Shown here one piece after another: positions 21,989 to 34,417 of a DNA stretch of 39,772 nucleotides (position 1 is the stretch's first letter; each line of letters opens with the position of its first letter). The stretch is from an uncultured bacterium (GTDB taxonomy: Bacteria > Bacillota > Clostridia > Lachnospirales > Lachnospiraceae): the NCBI GenBank assembly GCA_947643595.1, contig CANRWP010000029.1:1-39772 (forward strand), read 5' to 3'. The notes beneath the pieces were generated by a model. It did not search any database and was not told the DNA's origin. It saw only the letters and a list, made by a program, of their open reading frames with translations. Made by a program: the position numbers and the translations under genes.

Positions 21989-23341
21989 TTATTCCCGCCC
22001 TGCCGGCTTTCCGGATGTCCCGCTTTCCCCCAACATGCAGGAGAGCAGATCATACCCGCTTGATTTTACAATATCTACCGGCACTTGTAAAGTTTTTTCC
22101 ACTTCCCCCACGGTCACATCGTCCAGAAAAACATCCGTTCCGCTGCGCAGCATATTGACCGGCAGAAGAAGCCTCGAACCCAGCTCTTTTCCCCGCAGCT
22201 GCCCCATGATATCCTGCCCCGTCAAAAGCCCCGAGACCGTGATCTTCTCCCCAAAAAAGTGATTGATGATCTCATACATATGTACCGTAAGATTCGGACA
22301 GAGCGCCTCCGCCTGTCCGGCCATTTTTTTCAATATCGGATAGGCCAGTTTTCCCGTCGCGATGGAGATTTCGCGTCTCTGTCTTAAGACATACCCCCGC
22401 TTTCTTTGCAGCGCGTCCTCAAACTCATCCGTCAGCAGTCTCAGCATTCCCACGCCGTTTTCCAGCTGCAGGTATCCGTCGTATCGCTCCGCCTCGGGCA
22501 GCTCCCTCTCCGCCAGCAGATACCACTCATCGGAGGCGTGCACAAAGTGAACGCCGTACTGCCCTTTTATCTTTCTCTGCCAGTTTTCGATGCAGTCTAT
22601 GACTTCCTCCGCCTCCCCCTTTGTAAAAGGTTTTAGAGGATAAAGTCCCTCCCTGTGATCCGAGAGTCCCACCGGCACAACCGACACACTTGTCAGATAC
22701 GGGAGATACCCGGTCAGATCCGAGATGGTCCTCTGAAGCTCCTCCCCGTCGTTCACTCCCCTGCAGAGCACGATCTGTCCGTTCATCTCGATCTCCGCCT
22801 CGAAAAGCCTGTCCGCCTTCTGGAGCGCCTCCCCGGCGAAGCGGTTGTTCAGCATCATACAGCGCAGCGCCGGGTTCGTTGTCTGAAAAGAGATATTGAT
22901 GGGCTCCAGACGATAGCGGATGATCCTGTCGATATCATGGTCCGACATATTTGTCAGGGTCACATAATTCCCCTGCAAAAAGGACAATCTGGAATCGTCG
23001 TCCTTAAAATACAGCGTCTCCCGCATTCCCTTCGGCATCTGGTCGATAAAACAGAAGATGCACTTGTTGTGGCAGCTTCTGTACTCATCCATCAGGCCGT
23101 TTTCAAACTCCAGCCCCAGATCTTCCCCGGCGTCCTTCTCGATCTCTAAAACGCATTCCTCTCCGCTCTTTGCCAGGATCGCGACCTCGACGTAATCATC
23201 CTGCAGCAGATACTGGTAATCAAAAATGTCGTCGATCTCCTGACCGTTTATGGCCAGGACAGCGTCACCGCTCTCAAGTCCCATCTCCTCAGCGATGCTG
23301 TCCGGCAATACTTTTTGTATAATATGTCCTCTTTTTTCCAC
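21989..23341 (-). CDS. DUF512 family protein, PDZ plus radical-SAM-like cysteine motif
   Basis: A 450-residue protein. Residues 1-70 form a PDZ-like domain (IIQKVLPDSIAEEMGLESGD, then VLAINGQEI). A Cx3CxxC cluster, CHNKCIFC at about residues 90-97, is followed by a conserved block FIDQMPKGMRETLYFKDDD that typifies the DUF512 family, with a TIM-barrel-like middle and the DUF512 C-terminal domain. The cysteines resemble a radical-SAM iron-sulfur site. The function is unknown to me. The start codon is GTG with AGGGG seven bases upstream. It is the first gene of the long minus-strand cluster, with its own promoter at 23367-23395. Confidence 0.92.
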   Translation of the reverse strand: MEKRGHIIQKVLPDSIAEEMGLESGDAVLAINGQEIDDIFDYQYLLQDDYVEVAILAKSGEECVLEIEKDAGEDLGLEFENGLMDEYRSCHNKCIFCFIDQMPKGMRETLYFKDDDSRLSFLQGNYVTLTNMSDHDIDRIIRYRLEPINISFQTTNPALRCMMLNNRFAGEALQKADRLFEAEIEMNGQIVLCRGVNDGEELQRTISDLTGYLPYLTSVSVVPVGLSDHREGLYPLKPFTKGEAEEVIDCIENWQRKIKGQYGVHFVHASDEWYLLAERELPEAERYDGYLQLENGVGMLRLLTDEFEDALQRKRGYVLRQRREISIATGKLAYPILKKMAGQAEALCPNLTVHMYEIINHFFGEKITVSGLLTGQDIMGQLRGKELGSRLLLPVNMLRSGTDVFLDDVTVGEVEKTLQVPVDIVKSSGYDLLSCMLGESGTSGKPAGRE

Positions 23342-23366
23342 TTTTTACCCCTATCCTTTTACAATC

Positions 23367-23395
23367 ATTCTACTAGAATTCCCTTGACGTGTCAC
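23367..23395 (-). promoter_or_regulatory. Sigma-A-type promoter for DUF512-der-plsY-gpsA
   Basis: On the minus strand GTGACA (23390-23395) and TAGAAT (23367-23372) are separated by exactly 17 bases, 26 bases upstream of the GTG start at 23341. Its -35 directly abuts the -35 of the divergent prs promoter. Confidence 0.6.
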
Positions 23396-23410
23396 GAAGA
23401 ATGTTATAAA
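23384..23410 (+). promoter_or_regulatory. Promoter for prs
   Basis: TTGACG (23384-23389) and TATAAA (23405-23410) are spaced by 15 bases, shorter than usual. A TG dinucleotide at 23402-23403 gives an extended -10 (TGTTATAAA), which can compensate. The leader to the ATG at 23486 is about 65-70 bases. Confidence 0.5.
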
Positions 23411-23485
23411 TTTAAAATGTATTTGGATTTCGACAATCTTCTACAAAATGCTGTTTTTCATCGATTTGACATCAGGAGATATTTC

Positions 23486-24703
23486 ATGGCAGACGTTACG
23501 AAACTGGAACAGGCGCTTCCTGTTGCGCCTCTGAAAATTGTAGCTCTCGACTCCGCTGCGGAAATGGGCAGAGTCATCAACGAATTTCTCGTTAATTTTC
23601 GCAAAGAAACCCACAAAGACTTGACAAACGATCCTGCTTTTCAGGGATATCACGAAGACAACTTTCTCGCCGATGCGGACTGTCCGCGTTTCGGCAGCGG
23701 CGAAAGCAAAGGCATCTTCCGGGAATCCATCCGCGGCAAGGATCTTTATATTTTACTGGACGTCTGTAACCACAGTATCACCTATGAAATGAACGGTTAT
23801 ACAAACCATAAGTCCCCCGACGACCACTATCAGGATCTGAAACGGGTCATCGCGGCCGCCGGCGGAAAGGCAAACCGCATCACGGTCATCATGCCCTTCC
23901 TCTATGAGAGCAGACAGCATAAACGAAACGGCAGAGAATCTCTGGACTGTGCCTACGCCCTGAAAGAACTTTCCGACATGGGTGTCAGCAACATTGTCAC
24001 CTTCGACGCTCACGATCCCCGGGTGCAGAACTCGGTGCCGTTATGCGGCTTCGACAGCTTCATGCCCACCTACCAGTTCACGAAAGCTCTGCTGCGCGCG
24101 GAGCCGGATATCATCATCGACAAGGACCACACGATCGTTTTAAGCCCCGATGAGGGCGCTTTAGACCGCGCCGTCTATTTTGCAAACGTACTCGGTGTTG
24201 ATATGGGGATGTTCTATAAGAGAAGAGATTATTCCACCGTCGTAAACGGAAAAAATCCCATCGTGGCGCACGAATTTCTGGGGGACAATATCGCCGGGAA
24301 AGACGCCATCATCGTGGACGACATGATCTCCTCCGGGGAGAGTATGATCGACACTGCCCGCATCCTGAAAACCTTTAAGGTAAACAGAGTGTTCATCTGC
24401 ACCACTTTCGGGCTGTTCACCAACGGCCTCGAGCACTTTGACGCCGCCTACGAAAAAGGTTATTTCGACAGGCTGATCACCACCAATCTCACCTATCAGA
24501 CGCCGGAGCTTTTAGCCCGTCCTTATTATATGACTGCAGATATGAATAAATTTCTGGCGTCCATCATCGATTTTATGAACCACAATGTTTCCATGAATTT
24601 TGTCCGGACGCCCACCGAAAAGATCCGTAACCTGATGGAAGAACACAACCGGAAACGGATGGAAACGGCAGACGCCGCGCGGGTGGATGACAACACGAAT
24701 TGA
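23486..24703 (+). CDS. prs: Ribose-phosphate pyrophosphokinase (long form)
   Basis: PRPP synthetase makes 5-phosphoribosyl-1-pyrophosphate from ribose-5-phosphate and ATP for nucleotide, histidine and tryptophan synthesis. The PRPP-binding loop is AIIVDDMISSGESM; other family sites are MPFLYESRQHKRNGRES (flexible ATP loop), VTFDAHDP and VLSPDEGALDRA. At 405 residues it is about 90 longer than the classic enzyme, with extra sequence after residue 20 and at the C-terminus; long forms like this occur in Lachnospiraceae. AGGAGA stands seven bases before the ATG at 23486; a longer open frame upstream overlaps the DUF512 start and is not used. It converges on the sigma-like gene, with only nine bases between the stops. 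Confidence 0.95.
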   Translation: MADVTKLEQALPVAPLKIVALDSAAEMGRVINEFLVNFRKETHKDLTNDPAFQGYHEDNFLADADCPRFGSGESKGIFRESIRGKDLYILLDVCNHSITYEMNGYTNHKSPDDHYQDLKRVIAAAGGKANRITVIMPFLYESRQHKRNGRESLDCAYALKELSDMGVSNIVTFDAHDPRVQNSVPLCGFDSFMPTYQFTKALLRAEPDIIIDKDHTIVLSPDEGALDRAVYFANVLGVDMGMFYKRRDYSTVVNGKNPIVAHEFLGDNIAGKDAIIVDDMISSGESMIDTARILKTFKVNRVFICTTFGLFTNGLEHFDAAYEKGYFDRLITTNLTYQTPELLARPYYMTADMNKFLASIIDFMNHNVSMNFVRTPTEKIRNLMEEHNRKRMETADAARVDDNTN

Positions 24704-24712
24704 CCTCGCCAG

Positions 24713-25648
24713 TCAATCTGTAAACCCTCTCGGGAACAACTCTTCTCTGTCCCGGGCGTACATCATCTTTTCAAGCGCTCGCTTTTCCATCTTCTCTATC
24801 TCCCACTCTTTGCGGTTCAGTCTGGCGCCAATTTCTTCGTATCCGTCCCCATCCGCGATTCCTCTCATCACCATCTGTTCGCTTGCTGTCAGAAATCCGC
24901 TGTCTGTTAAAAATTCTTCCGGCGCTGCGTTAAATCTGGTGTCGCCTTCGTTTTTAAGCCATAGATCAGAAGAATACCGGGCGGCATATTCCGGGAACAG
25001 CTCTTCCCATTCTCCGGCGTACATCACCTTTTCAAGCGCCCGTTTTTTCATCTTCTCTATCTCCCACGCTCTGCGGTTCAGTCCGGCGCCGATCTCCTTC
25101 ATTTCCTTTCCCCTCACGATTCCCCTTATCACCGCCTGTTCACCTGCCGTCAGGAAACCGTCTCCTATAAATTTTTCCAACTCCGCGTCATATTCCCTGC
25201 GCAGCACGGTATTCTCCGGATTTCCCCCCTTCTCCGCCGGTATATTGTCCATGTCCGCCTCTTCCATGGAGATCACGTTTTGTGTTTTTTCTTCAGCCCC
25301 TTCTTCCTGTCTTATCTTTGTTTTCTTTCTCAGTTGTCCGTCCGAATTTCTGTCCGCAATATCATACATCTTCCAAAATGCATGGTCGGAAACATAGGAG
25401 CTGAATTTAGCCTTGTCCTGCTGTAAATCAAAATCCTCCACCATCCTGGTCACCATTTCCAGCCTGGCTTCCTGCAGAAGATCCTCCTCCATATATCGGA
25501 ACCCTTTCATCCTGTTGACAGCCTTCTTCAGCAGCCCGTCATTCTCCTTCAGCAGAAGATTCAAGGCCTCCTTATCGCCTTCCCGAAACCGCCTGATCAA
25601 CTCTCTGTTGCGCACATCCCTCTCATCCATTTTTCCTTCCGATCCCAT
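24713..25648 (-). CDS. Sigma-70-like factor with tandemly duplicated region-4-like module
   Basis: A 311-residue protein. Residues 15-100 match sigma-70 region 2 (EALNLLLKENDGLLKKAVNR; DLLQEARLEMVTRMVEDFD; FSSYVSDHAFWKMYDIADRN). A charged linker (105-160) follows. Two copies of one helix-turn-helix module start at residues 164 and 251 (GFLTA..., ending ...EELFP). I count 39 identities in 56 positions, about 70%. The copies are also visible in the DNA, offset by 261 bases (24732 on and 24993 on). Single sigma factors normally carry one region 4. The start may be 25648, or 25630, where AAGGA lies close before the ATG. It overlaps the upstream 397-aa gene and ends the MazF/ClpX-like cluster. A role as a dedicated sigma factor for the cluster is inference. 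Confidence 0.82.
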   Translation of the reverse strand: MGSEGKMDERDVRNRELIRRFREGDKEALNLLLKENDGLLKKAVNRMKGFRYMEEDLLQEARLEMVTRMVEDFDLQQDKAKFSSYVSDHAFWKMYDIADRNSDGQLRKKTKIRQEEGAEEKTQNVISMEEADMDNIPAEKGGNPENTVLRREYDAELEKFIGDGFLTAGEQAVIRGIVRGKEMKEIGAGLNRRAWEIEKMKKRALEKVMYAGEWEELFPEYAARYSSDLWLKNEGDTRFNAAPEEFLTDSGFLTASEQMVMRGIADGDGYEEIGARLNRKEWEIEKMEKRALEKMMYARDREELFPRGFTD

Positions 25649-26816
25649 ATCTGAAACGATCTCCTCTCCTACTGGTCATACCGTCCTCCGGCTCTTTCCC
25701 GGCGCTCTTTTCTCTGCGCCTGAGAGCCTCCTCTTCTCTGTCTTCTCTCTCCAAGATCTCCCGCTCCTCTTTGCTCAGGTTCTTTTTGCTCAAAATCTGC
25801 CGACTATTTTCTGCATAGAAGAACGAAGAAAACTCCGTGTCCAGCTCCTCCGGCGGCACATCAAATCTCATCGCCGCGTTATCCATCCGATAACCTTTTT
25901 TCAGGCTGCCGTTTTCTTTCAGACCCATCAAGTACCCCACAGCTTCCTCCACTCTGAAAAATCCTTTCACCGACAGGTAAAAGATCATCCGCCGATCGTC
26001 CATCGGGATCCGATTGATGCTGGTGCTGCCCCATTTGATCTTTCTCTCTCTGGCACACTCCTCATACCAGACAACACAGGGATAACAGGGAAATTTGCTG
26101 TGGGCCCTGGGAATCTTCGTCTCCGGGATATTATCGCGTCCCATAAGATAGATGCCAGCGCCTGTGCTTTCCTCCACATACAACGGTAAAATGACTCTGG
26201 TCTGCTCCTTTTCCAGCATATCATCCCGCAGCAGACGGCATATCTTTTCACACTTCTTTATAAATGCTTCGTCGAGCTTTCTCCCCTCCTGGGCCTCCGG
26301 CCTGCCCGCATCCCGGGCAGGGATGTTCCCCTGCCCGCTATTCTGCTCAAAAAAGCGCAGCAGTTTCACGTCGTCGCTCTCTTTCTTTGAACTGCGCTCC
26401 CTTTTTTCATTGTCGACAAAGTCGGCCGCCTGCTTTTTCAGCAGGCGATCCTCCAACTCCTCCTGTGACGCGCCAGGCAGGCTTTTCTTTGTCTTTGCCG
26501 ACATCTTTTTTTGTCGAAGCAGCTGATCCACCAGCGCATCCCTGACCTCCTGATACTCGTCCCGGGTAATATATTGATATTCATCACCCGCAGCCAGATA
26601 CGCGACTCTCAGACGCAGATAATACTCTTTTTCTTCCCCTTTATCCGCCAGAAATTCCCGCGCCGATTCTTTCGACTGCAGTTTTCCTTCCGCGCGGCGC
26701 TCTTCCCTCTCTCTAAAATACCGGTAGAGCAGGCTCTCTTTATAAGACTCGTCAGCCTTGTGCGCTTCATATTCCTCCACCAGTTTCCTGCCCAGTTCTT
26801 CACGGCTCTCTATCAT
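25623..26816 (-). CDS. Protein of unknown function, charged helical (397 aa)
   Basis: I do not recognise a family. Residues 1-190 are very rich in Lys, Glu and Arg and probably form long helices. The middle (about 195-335) looks globular, with VILPLYVEESTGAGIYLMG, KFPCYPCVVWYEEC (three Cys) and RIPMDDRRMIFYLSVKGFF. The last 50 residues are again charged and probably disordered. There is no signal peptide or membrane segment. The ATG overlaps the stop of the upstream paralog gene by four bases (ATGA), and its own end overlaps the sigma-like gene, so these three genes are tightly coupled. Co-regulation with the sigma factor suggests a cytoplasmic partner, perhaps a modulator of it (inference). 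Confidence 0.78.
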   Translation of the reverse strand: MIESREELGRKLVEEYEAHKADESYKESLLYRYFREREERRAEGKLQSKESAREFLADKGEEKEYYLRLRVAYLAAGDEYQYITRDEYQEVRDALVDQLLRQKKMSAKTKKSLPGASQEELEDRLLKKQAADFVDNEKRERSSKKESDDVKLLRFFEQNSGQGNIPARDAGRPEAQEGRKLDEAFIKKCEKICRLLRDDMLEKEQTRVILPLYVEESTGAGIYLMGRDNIPETKIPRAHSKFPCYPCVVWYEECARERKIKWGSTSINRIPMDDRRMIFYLSVKGFFRVEEAVGYLMGLKENGSLKKGYRMDNAAMRFDVPPEELDTEFSSFFYAENSRQILSKKNLSKEEREILEREDREEEALRRREKSAGKEPEDGMTSRRGDRFRYGIGRKNG

Positions 26817-27892
26817 TTATCGTACCTCCTCGCCTTCCGCACCGCCTCCCTTACAATACCGGGCAGCTGCTTTACGCGGTCAGTCACAAGCCCATAGGTT
26901 TCCTCCAGCGAATAGGCGGACAGCCTCTGCTCATAGAGATAGAGATCGACCATCTTCTCTATGGCGCCGGCAAACGCCTCCCCATCCCAGGTGAGTTTCC
27001 CCTCTGTGCCCTCCGTATAGGACATTTCCCTGAAGCGCAGATAATACCTCTTATACTTTTCAGCATCCGGAATACGTTGCAGGACTGCCGTCTCCCCCGC
27101 TTCGAGCTGTCTGGTTAATTCCTCCCACCACGGTTCTTCTTCCTCTTCCTCCATGCTGCCGTAAAGAATATCATACACATCCTCTCCGCTTTCCAGCCTG
27201 TCGGCCAGCTCCTCATCCGCAGCGTCTGAAAGTTCTTTTTTCAGCCTGACTTCTTCCGCATAGAGAGGATCCTCAGCCATCCGGACTTTTTTCATCTCTT
27301 CTTCCTTCGCATAAAATTCTTCTGCCGCTTTGACACTTCTTTTATTGAAAAGCTCTATTTCCCGCTTAAGAAACGCATTTTCTTCCTCCGTAAAAAGAGA
27401 ACTCTCCATGTCTCCGTCCAGCAAAAGGAACACTTCCTGTGCATATGCAAAAAAGTCGTGGAATCTGTGTGAGAAATAACCGCACTCCGCTTTCAGCAGA
27501 TCCGCCCTGCTTCTGCATGCCGAACGCCCTGTATCGCGCGCCATGCGAACGATGTCGCCGTAGGTCTGCGCCGGCTCGTACGGCTCCCTCGCAAAATCTT
27601 CCATAGAAGAAATATGATTCTTCCACGCGATTCCAAGTATCGTGCAGTAGAGAAAACTGCGGTACAGTTCCTCCTTTTCCGGGCTGTAATCTTCATGCGC
27701 GGCGGACATGATCTGCGTGATCAGCTCCTCGAGGCGCGCATCATCCACAACCCCTTCGTCATTTATGATTTTATTCTCATAGGTTTTATCATATCCTTTT
27801 ATCACGTCTCCCACCTGTCCCAACAGATCTTCCATACGTGTCTGGCGCTCATAAAGTGTTCTTTTTTCCTCTCTGATTTCATTCTGATTCAT
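26813..27892 (-). CDS. Paralog B of an unrecognised acidic protein family (359 aa)
   Basis: A soluble, acidic protein with no motif that I can assign to a known family. It is clearly related to the product of the gene upstream (27994-28962). Both share PEKxELYxSFLYCTxxGIAW, GDxVRMARDTGRS, FTEEExAF-type, RIPDxEKYxRxYLRFRE and YSLxE.xGxVTD blocks in the same order. Paralog B has an extra Glu/Lys-rich insert of about 60 residues (around 205-265, with a run of Glu before PWWEEL). The ATG at 27892 has AAGGAG seven bases before it; the open frame continues upstream but without such a site. It has its own promoter at 27955-27983 and overlaps the next gene by four bases. Confidence 0.78.
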   Translation of the reverse strand: MNQNEIREEKRTLYERQTRMEDLLGQVGDVIKGYDKTYENKIINDEGVVDDARLEELITQIMSAAHEDYSPEKEELYRSFLYCTILGIAWKNHISSMEDFAREPYEPAQTYGDIVRMARDTGRSACRSRADLLKAECGYFSHRFHDFFAYAQEVFLLLDGDMESSLFTEEENAFLKREIELFNKRSVKAAEEFYAKEEEMKKVRMAEDPLYAEEVRLKKELSDAADEELADRLESGEDVYDILYGSMEEEEEEPWWEELTRQLEAGETAVLQRIPDAEKYKRYYLRFREMSYTEGTEGKLTWDGEAFAGAIEKMVDLYLYEQRLSAYSLEETYGLVTDRVKQLPGIVREAVRKARRYDK

Positions 27893-27914
27893 GATTTTTC
27901 TCCTTTTTTCTGGT

Positions 27915-27942
27915 CGCGGACATACTTCCTTTTTTGTCCGCG
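27915..27942 (-). other. Hairpin in the 5' leader of paralog B
   Basis: CGCGGACA (27915-27922) and TGTCCGCG (27935-27942) are perfect 8-bp arms around a 12-base purine-rich loop. On the minus strand the hairpin lies right after the expected transcription start of the internal promoter and before the ribosome site. It is not followed by a T run, so it is not an intrinsic terminator. The loop contains an AAGGAAG stretch that resembles the real ribosome site downstream. RNA stabilisation or translational control is possible. Confidence 0.55.
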
Positions 27943-27954
27943 GTGCATTGTTAA

Positions 27955-27983
27955 ATTGTAACATACAGCCTGTCTGTCGTCAA
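27955..27983 (-). promoter_or_regulatory. Internal sigma-A-type promoter before paralog B
   Basis: On the minus strand TTGACG (27978-27983) and TACAAT (27955-27960) are spaced by exactly 17 bases, with TG one base before the -10 (extended -10). The spacer contains the dyad ACAG-G-CTGT (9 bp), a possible operator. This would let paralog B, the 397-aa protein and the sigma-like factor be transcribed separately from the upstream toxin/ATPase genes. Confidence 0.65.
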
Positions 27984-27993
27984 AACTTATCCC

Positions 27994-28962
27994 TTACATA
28001 TTTTCATCACCTCCTCCGGTTTCCAGCCAATGCTTATAGTCCTTTCCTATCTGCATCGTCCAGTACATCTCATTTGTCACCTTCCTCAGACAGTCCGTCA
28101 CCATCCCGCAAAGCTCCCCAAGCGAATAGACGCAGTACTCGTTTCGATAGAGATAACAGTCTACCATCTCTTCTATCTCGTTTATGAATTCCTCTCTGTC
28201 CCAGGTAAGCTCTCCTTCTACAGCGCCTGTATAGGACAATTCCCGAAAACGTAGATAATTTCGGATATATTTTTCGGGATCGGGGATACGCCCCACAATA
28301 CCCTCTTTCGCGCGCTCTATTGCGCTGCCCGCATCCTCCCAGAACAGGGCGTCGGATTCTTCCTCATCCTCCGCTGCGCGCGGCTCCCCAAAATCCGTCG
28401 GACATGCCGTCCTGTTCCTTTTTTCTAACGTTATCCTGTCCCGCCCGACAAACGCTTTTTCTTCCTCGGTATACAGAGAATACACTTCCTGTCCCCGCAG
28501 CAGAAAATACACTTCCGGCATATATCCGAAAAATCCCTGTATTTCGTCCGTGTAGTTTACGCTCTCCATAAAGAGCAGATCCTCCTTGCGCCCCGGCGTC
28601 GATCTGCCCGTGTCGCGCGCCATGCGCACCACATCCCCCCATACCTCCGCCGGTCTGTAATCGCCGTAATCCATGGACAGATGACACAGGTCCCTGTCCC
28701 ACGCGATCCCAGGCAGCGTACAGTAGAGAAAACTGTAATAAAGCTCTTTTTTCTCAGGCTCATACTGCTTCTGCGTTGACGAGAAAAGTTCTGCGATTAT
28801 CCCTTCCAGCCACCTGTCATCACGCTCACCTGCATGAGGCCGTAAATAGTCATAATCATAACCATCGGTCATATCGGCGATCTTCCGGAGCAGATCGTTC
28901 CTGTGCGACCTCCGGTTGCGGATCTCTTCCACCATCTCTCCACCTGTTTTTTTCTGTCCCAC
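27994..28962 (-). CDS. Paralog A of an unrecognised acidic protein family (322 aa)
   Basis: A soluble acidic protein of unknown family, the sister of paralog B. Strongly conserved segments are ELYYSFLYCTLPGIAWDR, WGDVVRMARDTGRS and RIPDPEKYIRNYLRFRELSY. There is no membrane helix or signal peptide. The start is uncertain among three codons. I choose GTG at 28962 because AAAGGAGG (28970-28977) stands seven bases before it. A GTG at 28980 would overlap the upstream stop as GTGA but has no ribosome site, and the ATG at 28935 touches its purine tract. It follows the 103-aa gene by 14 bases, in the same transcript as the ClpX-like ATPase. Confidence 0.78.
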   Translation of the reverse strand: MGQKKTGGEMVEEIRNRRSHRNDLLRKIADMTDGYDYDYLRPHAGERDDRWLEGIIAELFSSTQKQYEPEKKELYYSFLYCTLPGIAWDRDLCHLSMDYGDYRPAEVWGDVVRMARDTGRSTPGRKEDLLFMESVNYTDEIQGFFGYMPEVYFLLRGQEVYSLYTEEEKAFVGRDRITLEKRNRTACPTDFGEPRAAEDEEESDALFWEDAGSAIERAKEGIVGRIPDPEKYIRNYLRFRELSYTGAVEGELTWDREEFINEIEEMVDCYLYRNEYCVYSLGELCGMVTDCLRKVTNEMYWTMQIGKDYKHWLETGGGDENM

Positions 28963-28976
28963 ACGCGTTCCTCCTT

Positions 28977-29288
28977 TCACCTTACCCGCTTCAACTCTGC
29001 CTGCAGCACACTGATCCGCTCAAGAGCTGCCGCAAGAAGCAGTAAAACATTCATCTCCGGACCATGCCAGAGCGAGCTGATCTGTTTCACCGCCTCAAGC
29101 ACCGGCTCCAGCTCTTCATCCTGATAGCGTCCCTTTTTTATGTCTTCGCGGAGGCCCGCCACAGGATTTTCAATTTTGAGGAAAGCTAACGCCTCCTTCA
29201 AAGAACCGGCGAACTCCTGCCCGCTCAATCCCTCAAACGAGACGTCTTCCATACAAAATCCTTCCGTAAATTGGTAATTCATTTTCAT
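28977..29288 (-). CDS. Small helical protein of unknown function (103 aa)
   Basis: A 103-residue, mostly helical, acidic protein with no recognised family. It contains SFEGLSGQEFAGSLKEALAF, a central Glu/Asp-rich stretch and a Leu/Ala-rich C-terminal helix (NVLLLLAAALERISVLQAEL) that could be a coiled coil or a partner-binding helix. AAGGAGG stands five bases before the ATG at 29288; a second Met two codons on has poorer spacing. It lies 20 bases after the ClpX-like gene, within the same operon, so it may be an adaptor for that ATPase (inference only). Confidence 0.7.
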   Translation of the reverse strand: MKMNYQFTEGFCMEDVSFEGLSGQEFAGSLKEALAFLKIENPVAGLREDIKKGRYQDEELEPVLEAVKQISSLWHGPEMNVLLLLAAALERISVLQAELKRVR

Positions 29289-29308
29289 AAAAACCTCCTT
29301 TTTAGCAC

Positions 29309-30358
29309 TCAAAAAACAAAGTGCCGCCTGTCTTCCTCTTCATACAGCGCGTCCTCCAGCATGACACAGAGTTTATTCTCCATCCCCCGGATCCCCTCCC
29401 CGTCTTCTGCCGCCTCCGCGACCAGCTTCTTACAGGTTTCAGGCATCAGGCTGATCTCGACGCCAAACTCTTCCTCCAGCTTCTTCACCGGGCTGCAGGC
29501 GGCGCCTATCATATGAAAGAAATCCTCCTCCGTCATGGGCTTTAAATTGACGATCCGTCGGATCCTGCCCAGAATTTCCGTCATGATCCCAAAGTCATGC
29601 AGATTCTTCCTCTCGATCGGCGCGTCGTACGCTTTCATCTCCCGGCTGCTTTTGACAAAACCAATACTGCCGCCCCGCTTTTTCTCCGCAAGTTCTTCCG
29701 ACTTCACGGAAAACGCGCCGCAGAATATAAAACTGATCCTGGAAGTGTCAACCCAGACGCCTCCTCCTAAATCCACCTGTGTTCCTTCCAACATTTTCAG
29801 AACCTCCCCCTGGATGATCTCGCTCCAGTTTTCTCCCTTGGAGTTCGTCTTGGGCGTGAACATCTTATCCGCTTCGTCTATGACGAGAATGGTCTGTCTG
29901 TCTCCCAGAAATTTTTCAGAGATCAGCAGGCTTGCCCACTTCTTTTTCCCGCTCCAGCCGTCCGGGGTGATATTGCTCCCATCAACGATCTCGATCCTCT
30001 CAGGAAAAAGCTCCTGTAAGCATCTCCAGATATATGTTTTGCCGCAGCCGCTCGGACCTATGAACATGGCGTTGGAGCGCCTGCCCCTGTGCAGACAGTT
30101 AAAGAGTATGATGGAAGCCGCCCGCTTCGCTTCGTTCTGCTTCCAGATACGCTTGTCAAGGTAGTCATACAGCTTCTCTCCCCTGTCAAAATACCGCAGC
30201 AGATCGGCCTCCTCCACAAATTCCTCAGAAACGCCATCGTCGTCCACATCATTCGCACCATCGCCGTTATGGCGATCATCCGCAAAATTTTCCTGCTGTT
30301 TCTCATCACGGTCGTCATACCATGGTCTTTCTCCCGCTGTCCGGTTATCGTATTGCAT
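29309..30358 (-). CDS. ClpX-like AAA+ ATPase lacking the zinc-binding domain
   Basis: A 349-residue AAA+ protein resembling the ATPase core of the unfoldase ClpX. It has Walker A GPSGCGKT (101-108), a pore-loop-like DGWSGKK (133-139), Walker B ILVIDEAD (157-164), the sensor region ISFIFCGAFS, SIGF at 231-234 in the position of ClpX's ClpP-docking IGF loop, FGIMTEILGRI (256-266, like ClpX FGLIPEFIGRL) and a sensor-2-type GIRGMENKL (322-330). Instead of the C4 zinc domain it has 50 acidic, Asp-rich, probably disordered residues. AAAGGAGG precedes the ATG and the gene follows mazF by 23 bases. It probably unfolds a protein substrate, possibly for ClpP; the substrate is unknown. Confidence 0.85.
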   Translation of the reverse strand: MQYDNRTAGERPWYDDRDEKQQENFADDRHNGDGANDVDDDGVSEEFVEEADLLRYFDRGEKLYDYLDKRIWKQNEAKRAASIILFNCLHRGRRSNAMFIGPSGCGKTYIWRCLQELFPERIEIVDGSNITPDGWSGKKKWASLLISEKFLGDRQTILVIDEADKMFTPKTNSKGENWSEIIQGEVLKMLEGTQVDLGGGVWVDTSRISFIFCGAFSVKSEELAEKKRGGSIGFVKSSREMKAYDAPIERKNLHDFGIMTEILGRIRRIVNLKPMTEEDFFHMIGAACSPVKKLEEEFGVEISLMPETCKKLVAEAAEDGEGIRGMENKLCVMLEDALYEEEDRRHFVF

Positions 30359-30381
30359 TGTGAAACCTCCTTTCGTATATT

Positions 30382-30786
30382 TCAGGCGGAAAACTCACCC
30401 TGTTTTGAGGGAATCATCGGTTCAATTCCTATCTGTATCAGGACGCCCTTTGTAACCCGCTCCAGGGTATCTTTGTTAAGCCTTCCCTGCTTCCTGAGGA
30501 TCCTCACGGCGTCAAGGGACCTTGTCTGTGCGCACAGGGCAACCGCATCGCGAGTCAATCCCTCCTCCCTGTTTGCGGGGATGAGGACGTTCGTCGGCAG
30601 TTCAAGCCTGTATATCTGGGTCGTCAGCGGCACTACGGTGTATACATGATTGTGACGGTTCACCCAGTCATTGCTCACAACGACCACCGGACGTCTCCCC
30701 GCCTGCTCGCTCCCATGCTCCGGTGCGCCAAGGTCCACCAATAAAACGTCGCCTCTTTTAATGCTCTTTTTGCCTGTTCTGCTCAT
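30382..30786 (-). CDS. MazF/PemK-family endoribonuclease toxin
   Basis: A 134-residue type II toxin relative that cleaves RNA at short sequences. Family marks are the N-terminal RGDVLLVDLG (11-20), GSEQAGRRPVVVVSND (25-40) carrying the catalytic-type Arg, VVPLTTQ with its Thr at about 55-56, and ALCAQTRSLDAVRI near 83-96. The catalytic set looks intact. The frame extends upstream but AAAGGAG points to the ATG at 30786. No normal MazE-type antitoxin of 70-95 residues precedes it; only the 36-aa acidic ORF (30926-31036) does, with a terminator-like hairpin in between. The ClpX-like gene follows by 23 bases, so toxin and ATPase are co-transcribed. Confidence 0.92.
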   Translation of the reverse strand: MSRTGKKSIKRGDVLLVDLGAPEHGSEQAGRRPVVVVSNDWVNRHNHVYTVVPLTTQIYRLELPTNVLIPANREEGLTRDAVALCAQTRSLDAVRILRKQGRLNKDTLERVTKGVLIQIGIEPMIPSKQGEFSA

Positions 30787-30814
30787 CCTTGCTTTTCTCC
30801 TTTCTTTGTGCATC

Positions 30815-30852
30815 AAAAAGACGCATGGTTTCCATTTTTCCATGCGCCTTTT
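30815..30852 (-). terminator. Terminator or attenuator hairpin upstream of mazF
   Basis: On the minus strand the arms 30852-30840 (AAAAGGCGCATGG) and 30828-30816 (CCATGCGTCTTTT) pair over 13 bp, with one G-U wobble, around an 11-base loop, and run into TTTTT. The wobble is an A-C mismatch if read on the plus strand, so the structure fits minus-strand RNA. It lies between the 36-aa ORF and mazF, where it would end most transcripts or set the level of read-through into the toxin. Confidence 0.7.
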
Positions 30853-30925
30853 CGGTGTTTTTCTTCTTTACAGGTTATCATTCCGAATAGCTGGACTGCC
30901 TTCGCCCGAAATTCCGACTGCTCTC

Positions 30926-31036
30926 TCAGTCATCGTGCCCCTCCAGCCACCATTCCGCGTCAGCCAACGCCTCATCGTAAGCGTCGTCAAGATCTTCGCC
31001 TTCTGCTCCGAGAAGCTCTTCCCAGTCAATACTCAT
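30926..31036 (-). CDS. 36-aa extremely acidic peptide upstream of MazF
   Basis: This ORF is too short for most gene finders. It begins MSIDWEELLGAEGEDL and ends in EWWLEGHDD. I count 15 Asp/Glu, no Lys or Arg and three Trp among 36 residues. AGGAGG lies eight bases before the ATG, one of the best ribosome sites in this region, which argues that it is translated. Its position before mazF and its charge recall the acidic C-terminal tail of MazE antitoxins that occupies the RNA groove of MazF, but there is no DNA-binding part. A mini-antitoxin role is inference. Confidence 0.6.
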   Translation of the reverse strand: MSIDWEELLGAEGEDLDDAYDEALADAEWWLEGHDD

Positions 31037-31101
31037 TTTCCGTTCCTCCTTTTCATCCTGTGGTTTGCCGTGTTCAGCGTTTTGTTTTCTGTGCGAGACA
31101 T
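31033..31101 (-). CDS. 22-aa basic leader peptide coupled to the acidic ORF
   Basis: A tiny ORF starting MSRTENKTLNTANHR with seven Lys/Arg and one Glu. AAAGGAG stands six to seven bases before its ATG, and its stop overlaps the start of the 36-aa ORF as ATGA, the usual sign of translational coupling. It may be a leader peptide or a true small protein. The evidence is only the ribosome site and the overlap. Confidence 0.4.
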   Translation of the reverse strand: MSRTENKTLNTANHRMKRRNGK

Positions 31102-31187
31102 CCGCAGCTCCTTTCTCTGCTGTCTCTGTATGTACTTACATGATATGCACGTGCCGTTTTCTTCCGTATTTTTTACGTCACCATGAA

Positions 31188-32474
31188 TCAGGCTATTTTC
31201 TGTTTAAATGCACTCAAAATTTTTTGAGCCATGATGTTTACCTGTGGATACCCCTGTTCCTCAAGGATTGTCCCGGCTTTGTACAGAGCCGCTTCAAAAC
31301 TGTCTGCCATTTTATCTAATCTTTGCATCGCTATCTTTTCTCCGATGCCCACAGATCTTGCCTCTCTTTTAAAGGAATCTCTCTTTACATCATGAATATT
31401 CAGAACTCCTCCAATGCTGAGAGACATATTTTCTGAACTGTTCTCATAGACCATTGTACTTACAATATCATAGACCGGTGCCAGACGAATTGTTTTCAAA
31501 TCTTCTCCATAAAGCAGTGAAAGATTTTTAATATGATTGTCCGTATTTCCGATCAGAAAATTAAAAATACAGATATCCCACAATTTTAACTGATCCTCAA
31601 TCGGATCGGAAGAATAATTTCGAAGGACAGAAAACATCTTCCGGAGATAGTGCTCCCGGTTTCTTTCATATTTAAAACTGGCCGCAACTCCCATAGCCTG
31701 CGCAAAATCTTCCTGATGTAATCTGCGGGGAACAGGCAGTCCATCTACCAGCTTCTCATCTTCAGAAAACTTTCTGTCGTATCTTCTTGTGGCGAATAAA
31801 ATACTCTCTTCATCCCGATCATCTGCATTTATAATGAAACTGTCCGGAATCTCTATCCCCAAATTTCCGGCAGTTAAAAGGCAAAGCTGTTCATTTGTCA
31901 CTATCTGTTTCAACCTCACATGGCTCTGCTTAACAATATGCGTACTCGGAGCTGTCCCGAACGGCAAATACCACTCCCTTTCTTTCTCATGGTAATAAAG
32001 TCCTGCTTTCCCGGATGCCCCGGCAAGAGAAAGATGCGCTTTCGTCACAAGTTCGGCCGATTTTGTCGCCCCCTCTCTCGCAAGATTCAACACTTCCACA
32101 GCGTTTAATTTTCGATAACCCGGCAAACTGTTGCCTGTTTTCGCAGTTTCATCGATAATTTTAATCGCTCCCAGACACTCGCTTCCCAACCCCTCCAAGA
32201 TAGCAAGATAGTCATTTTCATCCGCACGTATCCATTCGGCAACACACTTTCTGCTGAATCCCTCAGGCAGCAATCCCTCAAAATAATTTCTGGTTCTGAC
32301 TGCATCAAAGCTTTTCTGCTCCAACGGCATACTGAGAGATATCGGCCTGCTCTCCGAATCCGAAAGATAACTGTCCGCATAGGAAAAGCTTGCGTTTTCT
32401 GAATTTTCGCCGGTTATTTTTCCGACAAATACATCTTGCCCACCCACCTCAATCATTACTGATAAATCTTTCAA
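31188..32474 (-). CDS. hipA: HipA-family serine/threonine kinase toxin
   Basis: A 428-residue HipA-like kinase. In E. coli HipA phosphorylates glutamyl-tRNA synthetase and induces dormancy. The HipA N-terminal subdomain runs to about residue 105. The P-loop-like GASGK is at 152-156 and the ATP-binding Lys is in THIVK (182). The catalytic segment IGNTDNHIKN has Asp312 and Asn317, and APVYDIVS has the metal-binding Asp336. All key residues look intact. hipB ends two bases upstream. The region reads visibly richer in A and T than the housekeeping genes beside it, which suggests a separate origin. The gene symbol is by homology. Confidence 0.94.
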   Translation of the reverse strand: MKDLSVMIEVGGQDVFVGKITGENSENASFSYADSYLSDSESRPISLSMPLEQKSFDAVRTRNYFEGLLPEGFSRKCVAEWIRADENDYLAILEGLGSECLGAIKIIDETAKTGNSLPGYRKLNAVEVLNLAREGATKSAELVTKAHLSLAGASGKAGLYYHEKEREWYLPFGTAPSTHIVKQSHVRLKQIVTNEQLCLLTAGNLGIEIPDSFIINADDRDEESILFATRRYDRKFSEDEKLVDGLPVPRRLHQEDFAQAMGVAASFKYERNREHYLRKMFSVLRNYSSDPIEDQLKLWDICIFNFLIGNTDNHIKNLSLLYGEDLKTIRLAPVYDIVSTMVYENSSENMSLSIGGVLNIHDVKRDSFKREARSVGIGEKIAMQRLDKMADSFEAALYKAGTILEEQGYPQVNIMAQKILSAFKQKIA

Positions 32475-32476
32475 TT

Positions 32477-32689
32477 TTACTCCCTCTTCGTGATAACCAA
32501 ATCCAGACCCAAAATATTGATAAGTTTAATTGCTTTCTCTATCTCCGCAGTCGGTTTTCCCCGCTCCAGATCAGAAATAAAAGTGACGCTCAAACCGGTA
32601 AATTCTGATAAAAACGCCTGTGTATATTTCAATTCCTTTCGCCTTGCCCGAACCGCCTGTCCAAGAGAAGCAGAATCTGTAATTTTCAT
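32477..32689 (-). CDS. hipB: HipB-like XRE-family antitoxin
   Basis: A 70-residue protein made almost wholly of one XRE helix-turn-helix (LGQAVRARRKELKYTQAFL, then GLSVTFISDLERGK) with a short C-terminal beta segment (LGLDLVITKRE). It should bind operator DNA and neutralise HipA. GAGGGG stands four to five bases before the ATG at 32689, so this start is preferred to an in-frame ATG at 32701, which lies inside the operator region. hipA follows after two bases. Two identical palindromes upstream are the likely operators for autorepression. Confidence 0.9.
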   Translation of the reverse strand: MKITDSASLGQAVRARRKELKYTQAFLSEFTGLSVTFISDLERGKPTAEIEKAIKLINILGLDLVITKRE

Positions 32690-32704
32690 ACAACCCCTCA
32701 TTTC

Positions 32705-33218: not shown

Positions 33219-34058
33219 TCACACCAGCTTCATACACGCCGCAAGATTCCCTCTCTGCCCGTGACTTGCCCGGTGGGAAAACAGAAAATCCGGGTTACAG
33301 CAGGTGCAGAGATCCGTCACCTCTATATGCTCCGCCGGGATCCCCGCCTCCAGCATGACAAGCCGGTTTGCCTCCCAGAGATCCAACTGGTATTTTCCGG
33401 GTTTCGTCTCATAAAACAATTCCCCCGCCGGAAAGCTCTTCCCAAACTCCTCCGCCACATCCTCGCTCACCTCATAGCAATCCTGACAGATGGACGGTCC
33501 GATCGCCGCATAGACATCCTTCGGATCTGTCCCGAAAGCCTCCTTCATCCTCTCCACCGTCTTCCTGCCGATCTTTTGCACGGTTCCCCGCCAGCCGGAG
33601 TGGGACAGGCCAATCGCCCTCCTCACCGGGTCCACAAAAAACAGGGGCACACAGTCCGCAAAAAAAGTGCAGAGCACGATCCCCTTCTCCTGTGTGATAA
33701 GTCCGTCCACATCCGTATAATCCTTCGGCCTCGTAACGCCCTTCCCCCTGTCCTTCGCCGTGACAAGGCGGATGTGATCCGTATGGGTCTGATCCGAGCA
33801 GACCATATCCTCCACACTGCTCCCCAGCACCTCCGCGATCCGACGGTAGTTCTCATCCACCGCTTCCTTATCGTCCCCTCTCGCATAGCTGAGATTCATC
33901 GATCGATAGATCCCCTCGCTGACACCGCCCTCCCTGGTGGAAAAAAGATGGCGCACCACCCCTGTCCTCTCCAATCCTGGAAAGGTGAGGTATGTCACGC
34001 CATTTTCCGCCGTATGTACTGCCAGGGCTTCCCGCCCCGCTTTTCTTTTTATCTCCAT
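33219..34058 (-). CDS. pgeF: YfiH/PgeF-family protein (purine nucleoside phosphorylase, laccase domain)
   Basis: A 279-residue protein of the multicopper-polyphenol-oxidase-like (DUF152) family. Members act as copper- or zinc-dependent enzymes on purine nucleosides, and E. coli PgeF (YfiH) prevents misincorporation in peptidoglycan. Motifs are QTHTDH, TFFADCVPLFF, LSHSGWRGT (metal-binding His and Cys) and GPSICQDCYEV, with CTCCNPDFLFSHR near the end. A GTG at 34067 overlaps yraN, but the ATG at 34058 has GGGTG six bases before it, so I use it. It lies in the conserved rplS-rbgA-rnhB-yraN neighbourhood. Confidence 0.92.
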   Translation of the reverse strand: MEIKRKAGREALAVHTAENGVTYLTFPGLERTGVVRHLFSTREGGVSEGIYRSMNLSYARGDDKEAVDENYRRIAEVLGSSVEDMVCSDQTHTDHIRLVTAKDRGKGVTRPKDYTDVDGLITQEKGIVLCTFFADCVPLFFVDPVRRAIGLSHSGWRGTVQKIGRKTVERMKEAFGTDPKDVYAAIGPSICQDCYEVSEDVAEEFGKSFPAGELFYETKPGKYQLDLWEANRLVMLEAGIPAEHIEVTDLCTCCNPDFLFSHRASHGQRGNLAACMKLV

Positions 34059-34063
34059 AATTG

Positions 34064-34417
34064 TCACCCGATATAATCAAACGCATTCCGAAACCAGCTG
34101 ATCTCCTCCCCGCAGATCGCCACCACATCGAACCGCACCGGCGAAAAATCTCCCATTTTGTGCATCATCCGGTAGTAGTCCGACACCCGGCATATCTTCC
34201 TCTGTTTCCGGTAATCCACCGCCTCCTGCGGCGTGCCCTTTCCAGCATCCCTGCGGTACTTCACCTCCACAAAAACAGTGGTCTCACCATCCCTTGCCAC
34301 AATATCGATCTCCCCGTACCGGTTTCGGAAATTGCGGCACAGGATCCGAAGCCCCCGCTCCTCCAGAAACGCTTCCGCTCTCCTCTCGTAGATTTCTCCT
34401 ACTCTCCTCTTATTCAC
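34064..34417 (-). CDS. YraN family protein (UPF0102, nuclease-like fold)
   Basis: A 117-residue protein of the YraN/UPF0102 family, which has a restriction-endonuclease-like fold. The family core is RNFRNRYGEIDIVARDG (Asp and Glu of the nuclease-type site) followed by TVFVEVKYRR (Glu-x-Lys). It probably acts in DNA processing; the exact role is not known. It follows the FlhB-like gene by 31 bases and slightly overlaps the possible GTG start of pgeF. Confidence 0.94.
   Translation of the reverse strand: MNKRRVGEIYERRAEAFLEERGLRILCRNFRNRYGEIDIVARDGETTVFVEVKYRRDAGKGTPQEAVDYRKQRKICRVSDYYRMMHKMGDFSPVRFDVVAICGEEISWFRNAFDYIG

Follow-up and report, generated by a model that had tools for sequence, protein, structure and literature searches.

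Gene content and organisation of the cassette

A cassette of seven genes was found between yfiH (33219-34067) and prs (23315-24703, plus strand) in a stretch of 39,772 nucleotides from an uncultured bacterium of the Lachnospiraceae (assembly GCA_947643595.1, contig CANRWP010000029.1); this whole stretch is called the window below. The cassette lies on the minus strand at 24713-30843, and its conserved part extends upstream to about 31178. In the order of transcription, the genes encode a MazF toxin, a ClpX-like ATPase, four proteins named here U111, U328, U383 and U397, and a sigma factor. Upstream of mazF we identified a gene of 36 amino acids (36-aa gene), a terminator-like hairpin and a promoter-like element. 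An initial annotation of this DNA had described the seven genes as a co-directional unit, and all of them were confirmed on the minus strand at the positions given for each below. It had also reported several four-base overlaps. With the likely starts, chosen by ribosome-binding site and conservation (mazF 30786, U111 29288, U328 28962 with a GTG codon, U383 27892), one ATGA overlap remained, that of U383 and U397, but the rest had leaned on upstream start codons. The U397 and sigma factor genes possibly overlap by 26 bases. A sigma-70-like promoter match (TTGACG-17-TACAAT, 10/12) was seen before U383 at 27983-27955 and might be a second promoter.

Nine genomes of the genus were compared, four of which carry the cassette (the window genome, G003, G005 and G006). 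The seven genes are intact in all four carrier loci, in the same order and between yfiH and prs, a recurrence greater than chance would give, and the ATPase orthologues of these four genomes are 84-100% identical. The seven genes are under purifying selection. Their ratio of nonsynonymous to synonymous change (dN/dS), computed for four of the six pairs of carrier genomes, was 0.14-0.50 in every comparison with a dS of at least 0.2, being lowest for the ATPase (0.14-0.20) and highest for U328 (0.39-0.50). The ratio of 0.76 for U383 between the window and G005 was obtained at a dS of 0.03 and is inflated by a non-homologous upstream extension of the open frame.

mazF, the 36-aa gene and the hairpin between them

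The mazF gene (30382..30786, minus strand) is present in all four loci and encodes 134 amino acids from its likely start; its open frame begins at 30843, inside the hairpin. The protein belongs to the PemK/MazF family (PF02452, E 3.7e-27, 95.1 bits against a cut-off of 23.1). Solved MazF structures aligned over residues 26-143 with E about 4e-18, the nearest being MazF of the S. aureus and Bacillus type. MazF relatives occur in 109 of 145 genomes, and the best one outside the genus is 44% identical.

This MazF had initially been taken to lack a normal antitoxin. No MazE-type antitoxin with a DNA-binding domain was in fact found between hipA, which belongs to the neighbouring hipBA pair, and mazF in the window, but a conserved gene at 30926..31036 (minus strand; MSIDWEELLGAEGEDLDDAYDEALADAEWWLEGHDD) had been overlooked. 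Its product is an acidic peptide of 36 amino acids. The gene is open, of equal length and provided with a good ribosome-binding site in all four loci (the start is TTG in G006), and it stands some 140 bases upstream of where mazF probably starts. Across the four loci 25 of the 36 positions are invariant. In the three comparisons with the window, dN/dS was 0.08-0.13 with an excess of silent changes (P 0.0009, 0.005 and 0.009). MazF probably has a partner, because this conserved acidic gene and the hairpin precede it, and the 36-aa protein is a candidate mini-antitoxin. MazF relatives elsewhere were also considered as sharing the 36-aa gene and were rejected, since it was present in none of the 26 loci of the best other matches.

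The hairpin, followed by a T run, occupies 30816..30852 (minus strand) in the window, between the 36-aa gene and mazF, and is a putative attenuator. It folds in all four loci (z −4.8 to −6.1), and its 13 pairs are paired in 52 of 52 cells across the loci despite a large loop deletion in the window. A terminator scan with a loop limit of 8 bases did not list it. Such a short gene with a terminator-like hairpin about 70 bases downstream, as measured in the window, might also be a leader peptide, in which the movement of the ribosome would set whether the hairpin forms, so that mazF would be under attenuation rather than under a peptide antitoxin. We regard this as improbable, as the amino acid sequence is constrained in three of the four comparisons, 12 positions are common to the N-termini of two longer proteins elsewhere (264 and 349 amino acids, described below), and no run of repeated codons is present in the 36-aa gene.

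The promoter-like element and its repeats

A bipartite promoter-like element, CGTAAAAAATACGGAAGAAAA followed by 11 variable bases and TATCATGTArGT, was identified at 31137..31178 (minus strand). It contains a partial palindrome, and its halves, TACGGAAGAAA and TATCATGTA, are separated by a fixed distance with a spacer of variable sequence; the spacing was constant in all eight copies found. The window and G005 have one copy each, G003 has two and G006 four, in units 107-108 bases apart. All eight copies lie directly upstream of the cassette, so that the genomes with the element (four of nine) are exactly the cassette carriers. The genome-wide search used the 22-base left part of the element, for which no copy was found elsewhere in the nine genomes with up to two mismatches allowed; a reversed-pattern control gave 0 matches. 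The short bipartite pattern was searched in 136 loci and was confined to those of the four cassette sites (27 of the 136). The element was not listed in a sigma-70 consensus scan. It is a candidate promoter for the dedicated sigma factor of the cassette.

In G006 (L033:11498-11867) a 107-base unit is repeated in tandem 3.5 times. Every copy carries the element together with a stable hairpin (z −4.5 for the folding of the unit), and the units are possibly tandem promoters or small RNAs. Type III toxin-antitoxin systems (ToxIN-like) have repeats and a hairpin before the toxin gene, and the cassette shares with them repeats and a hairpin before a ribonuclease gene. If the tandem units were antitoxin RNAs, the hairpin would be a terminator before the toxin, as in type III. 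This we consider very improbable: the tandem RNA repeats of type III stand directly before the toxin, whereas the window and G005, two of the four loci, have a single element, and a conserved protein gene lies between the repeat and the hairpin. Moreover, what is conserved is a bipartite element with a variable spacer rather than a folded repeat, and the unit matched no Rfam family.

A hipBA pair (31188-32701) lies directly upstream of the element in the window. It was tried as a member of the cassette and rejected: the loci of G003, G005 and G006 lack it, and its GC content is lower (42.4% against 50.8% for the cassette, which is near the 52.6% of the window). The left arm of the palindrome is altered in the window beside the end of hipA, a change that we attribute to the arrival of hipBA.

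The sigma factor

The last gene of the cassette (24713..25648, minus strand) encodes a sigma-70-type factor, with 52.8 bits against TIGR02937 (cut-off 42.9); the Pfam model Sigma70_r4 stayed under its cut-off (15.2 against 24.1). Region 4 is tandemly duplicated, with 43 of 67 aligned residues identical and a score of 204, where the best of 500 shuffles reached 54, in agreement with the sigma-70-like factor with duplicated helix-turn-helix that had been annotated. Region 2 resembles the sigma factor of PDB entry 1l0o (E 2.3e-8). Residues of about 85-135 differ strongly between the window and G005 on one side and G006 and G003 on the other, as if this part had been swapped.

The sigma factor also matches spore_sigH over residues 11-208 (E 3.7e-9) and the SigF and SigG models over region 2. 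Like the match to 1l0o, this would suit a developmental or sporulation module, in which a SigH/SigF-like sigma factor drives a lineage programme and MazF reshapes the mRNA pool. A parallel is MazF-mx of Myxococcus xanthus, which, according to PMC4803016, acts in development with the transcription factor MrpC, to which it is tied rather than to MazE. MrpC, however, is no sigma factor; its gene is distant from that of MazF-mx, and there is no operon with an ATPase. Such a developmental role appears quite improbable here, as the scores are far below the equivalog cut-offs (for example 36.3 against 294.8) and the cassette is missing from most of the genus.

The ClpX-like ATPase

The second gene (29309..30358, minus strand, all four loci) encodes an AAA+ ATPase of 349 amino acids. 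It scores 38.6 bits with Pfam AAA_2 (cut-off 27), and its nearest NCBIfam model is ClpX, where it remains below the curated cut-offs (91.4 against 359 and 68.7 against 370.75). Because these scores are so far under the cut-offs, the protein is ClpX-like but not ClpX proper, and the ClpX-type unfoldase core of the initial annotation holds in that sense. Compared with the true ClpX proteins of relatives, the ATPase keeps the AAA+ core with Walker A (GPSGxGKT), Walker B (VIDEADK), the GR arginine-finger motif and a sensor-2-like motif. It also keeps the ClpP-docking IGF tripeptide, found as SIGF in all four copies and aligned with the IGF of ClpX. It differs from ClpX in three respects. The N-terminus is short, acidic and without the CxxC motifs of the zinc-binding domain of the aligned ClpX proteins, the stretch of the RKH loop is deleted in all four copies, and GW-S/K-G replaces GYVG in the pore-1 loop. 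The roles of the IGF, RKH and pore loops are taken from PMC7112952, according to which IGF loops bind ClpP. With the IGF tripeptide kept, the ATPase should be an unfoldase able to dock on ClpP and feed it, and with the zinc domain and RKH loop lost and the pore loop changed, its substrates should differ from those of ClpX.

The ClpX-like ATPases of about 500 amino acids in the family were considered as orthologues and rejected, as they are 27-33% identical and have other neighbours. Those aligned have a zinc-finger-like N-terminus, except for divergent copies in G012. In that genome (L036:4101-12374) three divergent ClpX-like ATPases of 511-517 amino acids lie close together, two of them adjacent, and in other relatives one zinc-finger-like ClpX paralogue of about 500 amino acids was observed in a recurring neighbourhood.

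U111, U328, U383 and U397

The four remaining genes, all on the minus strand, are U111 (28977..29288, about 103 amino acids from a conserved ATG, all four loci), U328 (27994..28962), U383 (26813..27892) and U397 (25623..26816, all four loci). None of their products gave a Pfam match better than E 0.3 or an NCBIfam match up to E 0.1. U328 is paralogous to U383, with 128 of 286 aligned residues identical, and the earlier description of four proteins of no family, two of them paralogous, is thus supported. In PADLOC and PHROGs there were at most stray matches (U111 to RmrA, E 0.0033; U328 to phrog_15273, E 0.069). No Rsb-like domain was recognised in any of the four with Pfam and NCBIfam, though a remote fold could escape a sequence search. 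The predicted model of U383 is all-helical (pLDDT 68.9, pTM 0.63); for U397 structure prediction gave no useful model. U111 is a possible adaptor of the ATPase.

Distribution and history of the cassette

The site is empty in G001, G002 and G007, where yfiH and prs face each other and their matched stretches are 36-53 bases apart. G008 has 6.7 kb of unrelated genes there (L084:3860-10570; DegV-like and MarR-like ones among them by eye), an indication that this site takes up insertions repeatedly. Both G004 contigs break off here, and neither the ATPase nor the element was found in the genome. When the prs tree is rooted by its most divergent pair, G002 and G004, the four carriers and G008 are grouped (0.986), in line with a single gain and a single loss or replacement; this group was not supported in the yfiH tree. 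Each of the nine genomes also has a second prs copy, 56-59% identical to the one that flanks the cassette (23483-24703).

The window and G005 are 98-100% identical over prs and the cassette genes up to and including U383; for those from U328 to mazF the figure is 84-88%. The U383 of G006 is 97% identical to that of the window, and the other cassette genes of G006 are 79-88% identical. This mosaic indicates that relatives have swapped segments and that a break lies close to the U383/U328 border (26813-28000). Gene conversion within the cassette is seen in the sharp shift at that border and in the separately exchanged U383 of G006.

Outside the genus, profiles of U328/U383 and of U397 found only their own genome among 348 family genomes, nearly all of other genera. 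The sigma factor profile found one further genome with a partial match (residues 16-207). Of 341 genomes in the class, the ATPase profile matched a single other one at E 1e-25; ClpX-type relatives at 27-33% identity are common elsewhere. For U111, with which other genomes were not searched, conservation is known from the four cassette loci. A collection-wide scan with two exact U328/U383 peptide patterns gave three loci, those of G006, G005 and G003. Pattern-seeded scans of viral contigs found no relative of U328/U383, U397, the sigma factor, the ATPase or the 36-aa gene. U397 was not found in phages, nor U383 in plasmids, and among the matches listed for the ATPase in the phage and plasmid test there were just ClpX-type proteins below 30% identity. 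U111 and MazF were left out of the phage and plasmid searches; for the proteins searched, no phage or mobile-element module was found. A regular occurrence of the genes in isolation from one another, which the initial annotation had named as a refutation, was likewise not seen: U328/U383 and U397 matched no other family genome, and the sigma factor gave the one partial match. The idea that the set stays together across the Lachnospiraceae was borne out in the four carrier loci, but no other sites or genera were found and nothing ties the set to defence islands. As far as searched, it is confined to part of one genus.

The mosaic history, with its break between the window and G005 and the exchanged U383 of G006, could reflect an arms race, and the presence of the cassette varies within the genus. 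These facts, and an operon that joins a toxin-type effector to an ATPase, would fit an anti-phage abortive infection system in which U328, U383, U397 and the ATPase sense infection and release MazF. We consider this unlikely. Defence-library matches are generic at most, such as that of the ATPase to DolB in PADLOC (E 6e-5), nothing nearby was recognised as a defence or phage gene save the window-only hipBA, and the cassette keeps to one stable site in one clade. To our knowledge, a dedicated sigma factor is also unusual in defence systems.

The shared site and the prs tree, which fits a single gain, may instead mean that the genes have no joint function, and that MazF and a small partner came to lie beside an unrelated operon of the ATPase, the U proteins and the sigma factor by one insertion followed by descent. 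That the hairpin parts the 36-aa gene from mazF, and that a sigma-70-like promoter match precedes U383, would agree with this. It seems unlikely, however, given that all seven genes have stayed intact and constrained at a dS of around 0.3-0.8, that they are tightly spaced, and that the sole distinctive cis element precedes the 36-aa gene and mazF, not the sigma factor gene.

Comparison with known systems

The nearest precedent is the S. aureus mazEF-rsbUVW-sigB operon, whose rsb genes encode partner-switching regulators. While sigB is controlled there by Rsb partner switching, the cassette has the ClpX-like ATPase and the four U proteins instead; its sigma factor has a duplicated region 4, unlike that of the sigB system, and its hairpin precedes mazF, whereas in S. 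aureus a hairpin follows it. In plan the two are alike: S. aureus mazEF has a weak terminator, through which read-through couples it to sigB, the gene of a stress sigma factor further downstream (PMC3920265). In the cassette, as judged from the gene layout, mazF and the sigma factor gene lie together and point the same way. With type II MazEF systems the cassette shares an intact PemK/MazF-type toxin gene, but these have a DNA-binding antitoxin and the cassette has just the acidic 36-aa gene.

As had been supposed, no described system with this set was found in Pfam, NCBIfam, PADLOC, PHROGs or the literature searched. The single literature match appears to concern proteases and toxin-antitoxin systems of another organism. 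Apart from the four unknown families the parts are of known kinds, and it is their assembly that is new, as far as searched.

A proposed growth-arrest operon

Our preferred reading, which is possible but tentative, is that the cassette forms a self-contained operon for growth arrest by MazF, transcribed by means of its own sigma factor. In their anatomy, the ClpP-docking ATPase and the cassette-confined element fit the model of proteolysis and self-transcription proposed in the initial annotation. When free, the sigma factor would bring RNA polymerase to the upstream element and thereby drive the operon that encodes it, a positive feedback. The hairpin would stop most transcripts past the 36-aa gene, yielding the small protein in an excess that covers MazF, and read-through would yield MazF and the rest of the operon. 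The MazE tail is disordered and wraps over MazF, according to PMC4803016, and by analogy its task could be within reach of a short acidic peptide. The IGF loop would let the ClpX-like ring dock on host ClpP, and U111, perhaps along with U328 and U383 as a helical pair, would serve as adaptors or anti-sigma factors. Under stress the ATPase would then destroy an inhibitor of MazF or of the sigma factor, with the result that mRNA is cut, growth is arrested and the expression of the switch itself is raised.

Several observations weigh against this growth-arrest operon. Between G006 and G003 the 36-aa gene has a dN/dS of 0.57 and no silent-change excess (P 0.42), and its product matches no MazE or other antitoxin in the libraries searched or in PDB. 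The motif M-G-IDWE..LGAEGAD...AYED also begins two unrelated longer proteins in other genera, of 264 amino acids (G229, L124:1501-2295) and 349 amino acids (G107, L125:1501-2550), with 12 invariant positions and with no cassette gene near either of them. This suggests that the motif serves more widely, possibly as a binding module or shared N-terminal module. One hairpin pair is changed on both sides, which was equalled by 247 of 500 shuffles, so that the hairpin is supported by conservation and stability and not by covariation. No recognisable anti-sigma factor was found among the cassette proteins. Finally, the linkage was observed at one site in one genus, and since the set is absent from other sites and genera as searched, it represents one history and not independent evidence. 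A fuller version of the growth-arrest operon appears doubtful, namely an eight-gene machine with a private sigma factor only for its own operon, a private ClpXP-like unfoldase, a 36-residue "IDWE-AEG" peptide (a module fused elsewhere) restraining MazF, and four new families.

If the proposed operon is real, MazF would have been coupled to a dedicated sigma factor a second time, independently of mazEF-sigB, and here proteolysis by a private ClpX-like ring would replace partner switching. The operon would show a growth-arrest toxin wired into a one-operon feedback switch, and the 36-aa protein would rank with the smallest protein antitoxins proposed for a MazF. Among the carriers is the record "Bacterium 1XD8-76 strain 1XD8-76", and the cassette may thus be testable in a living strain.

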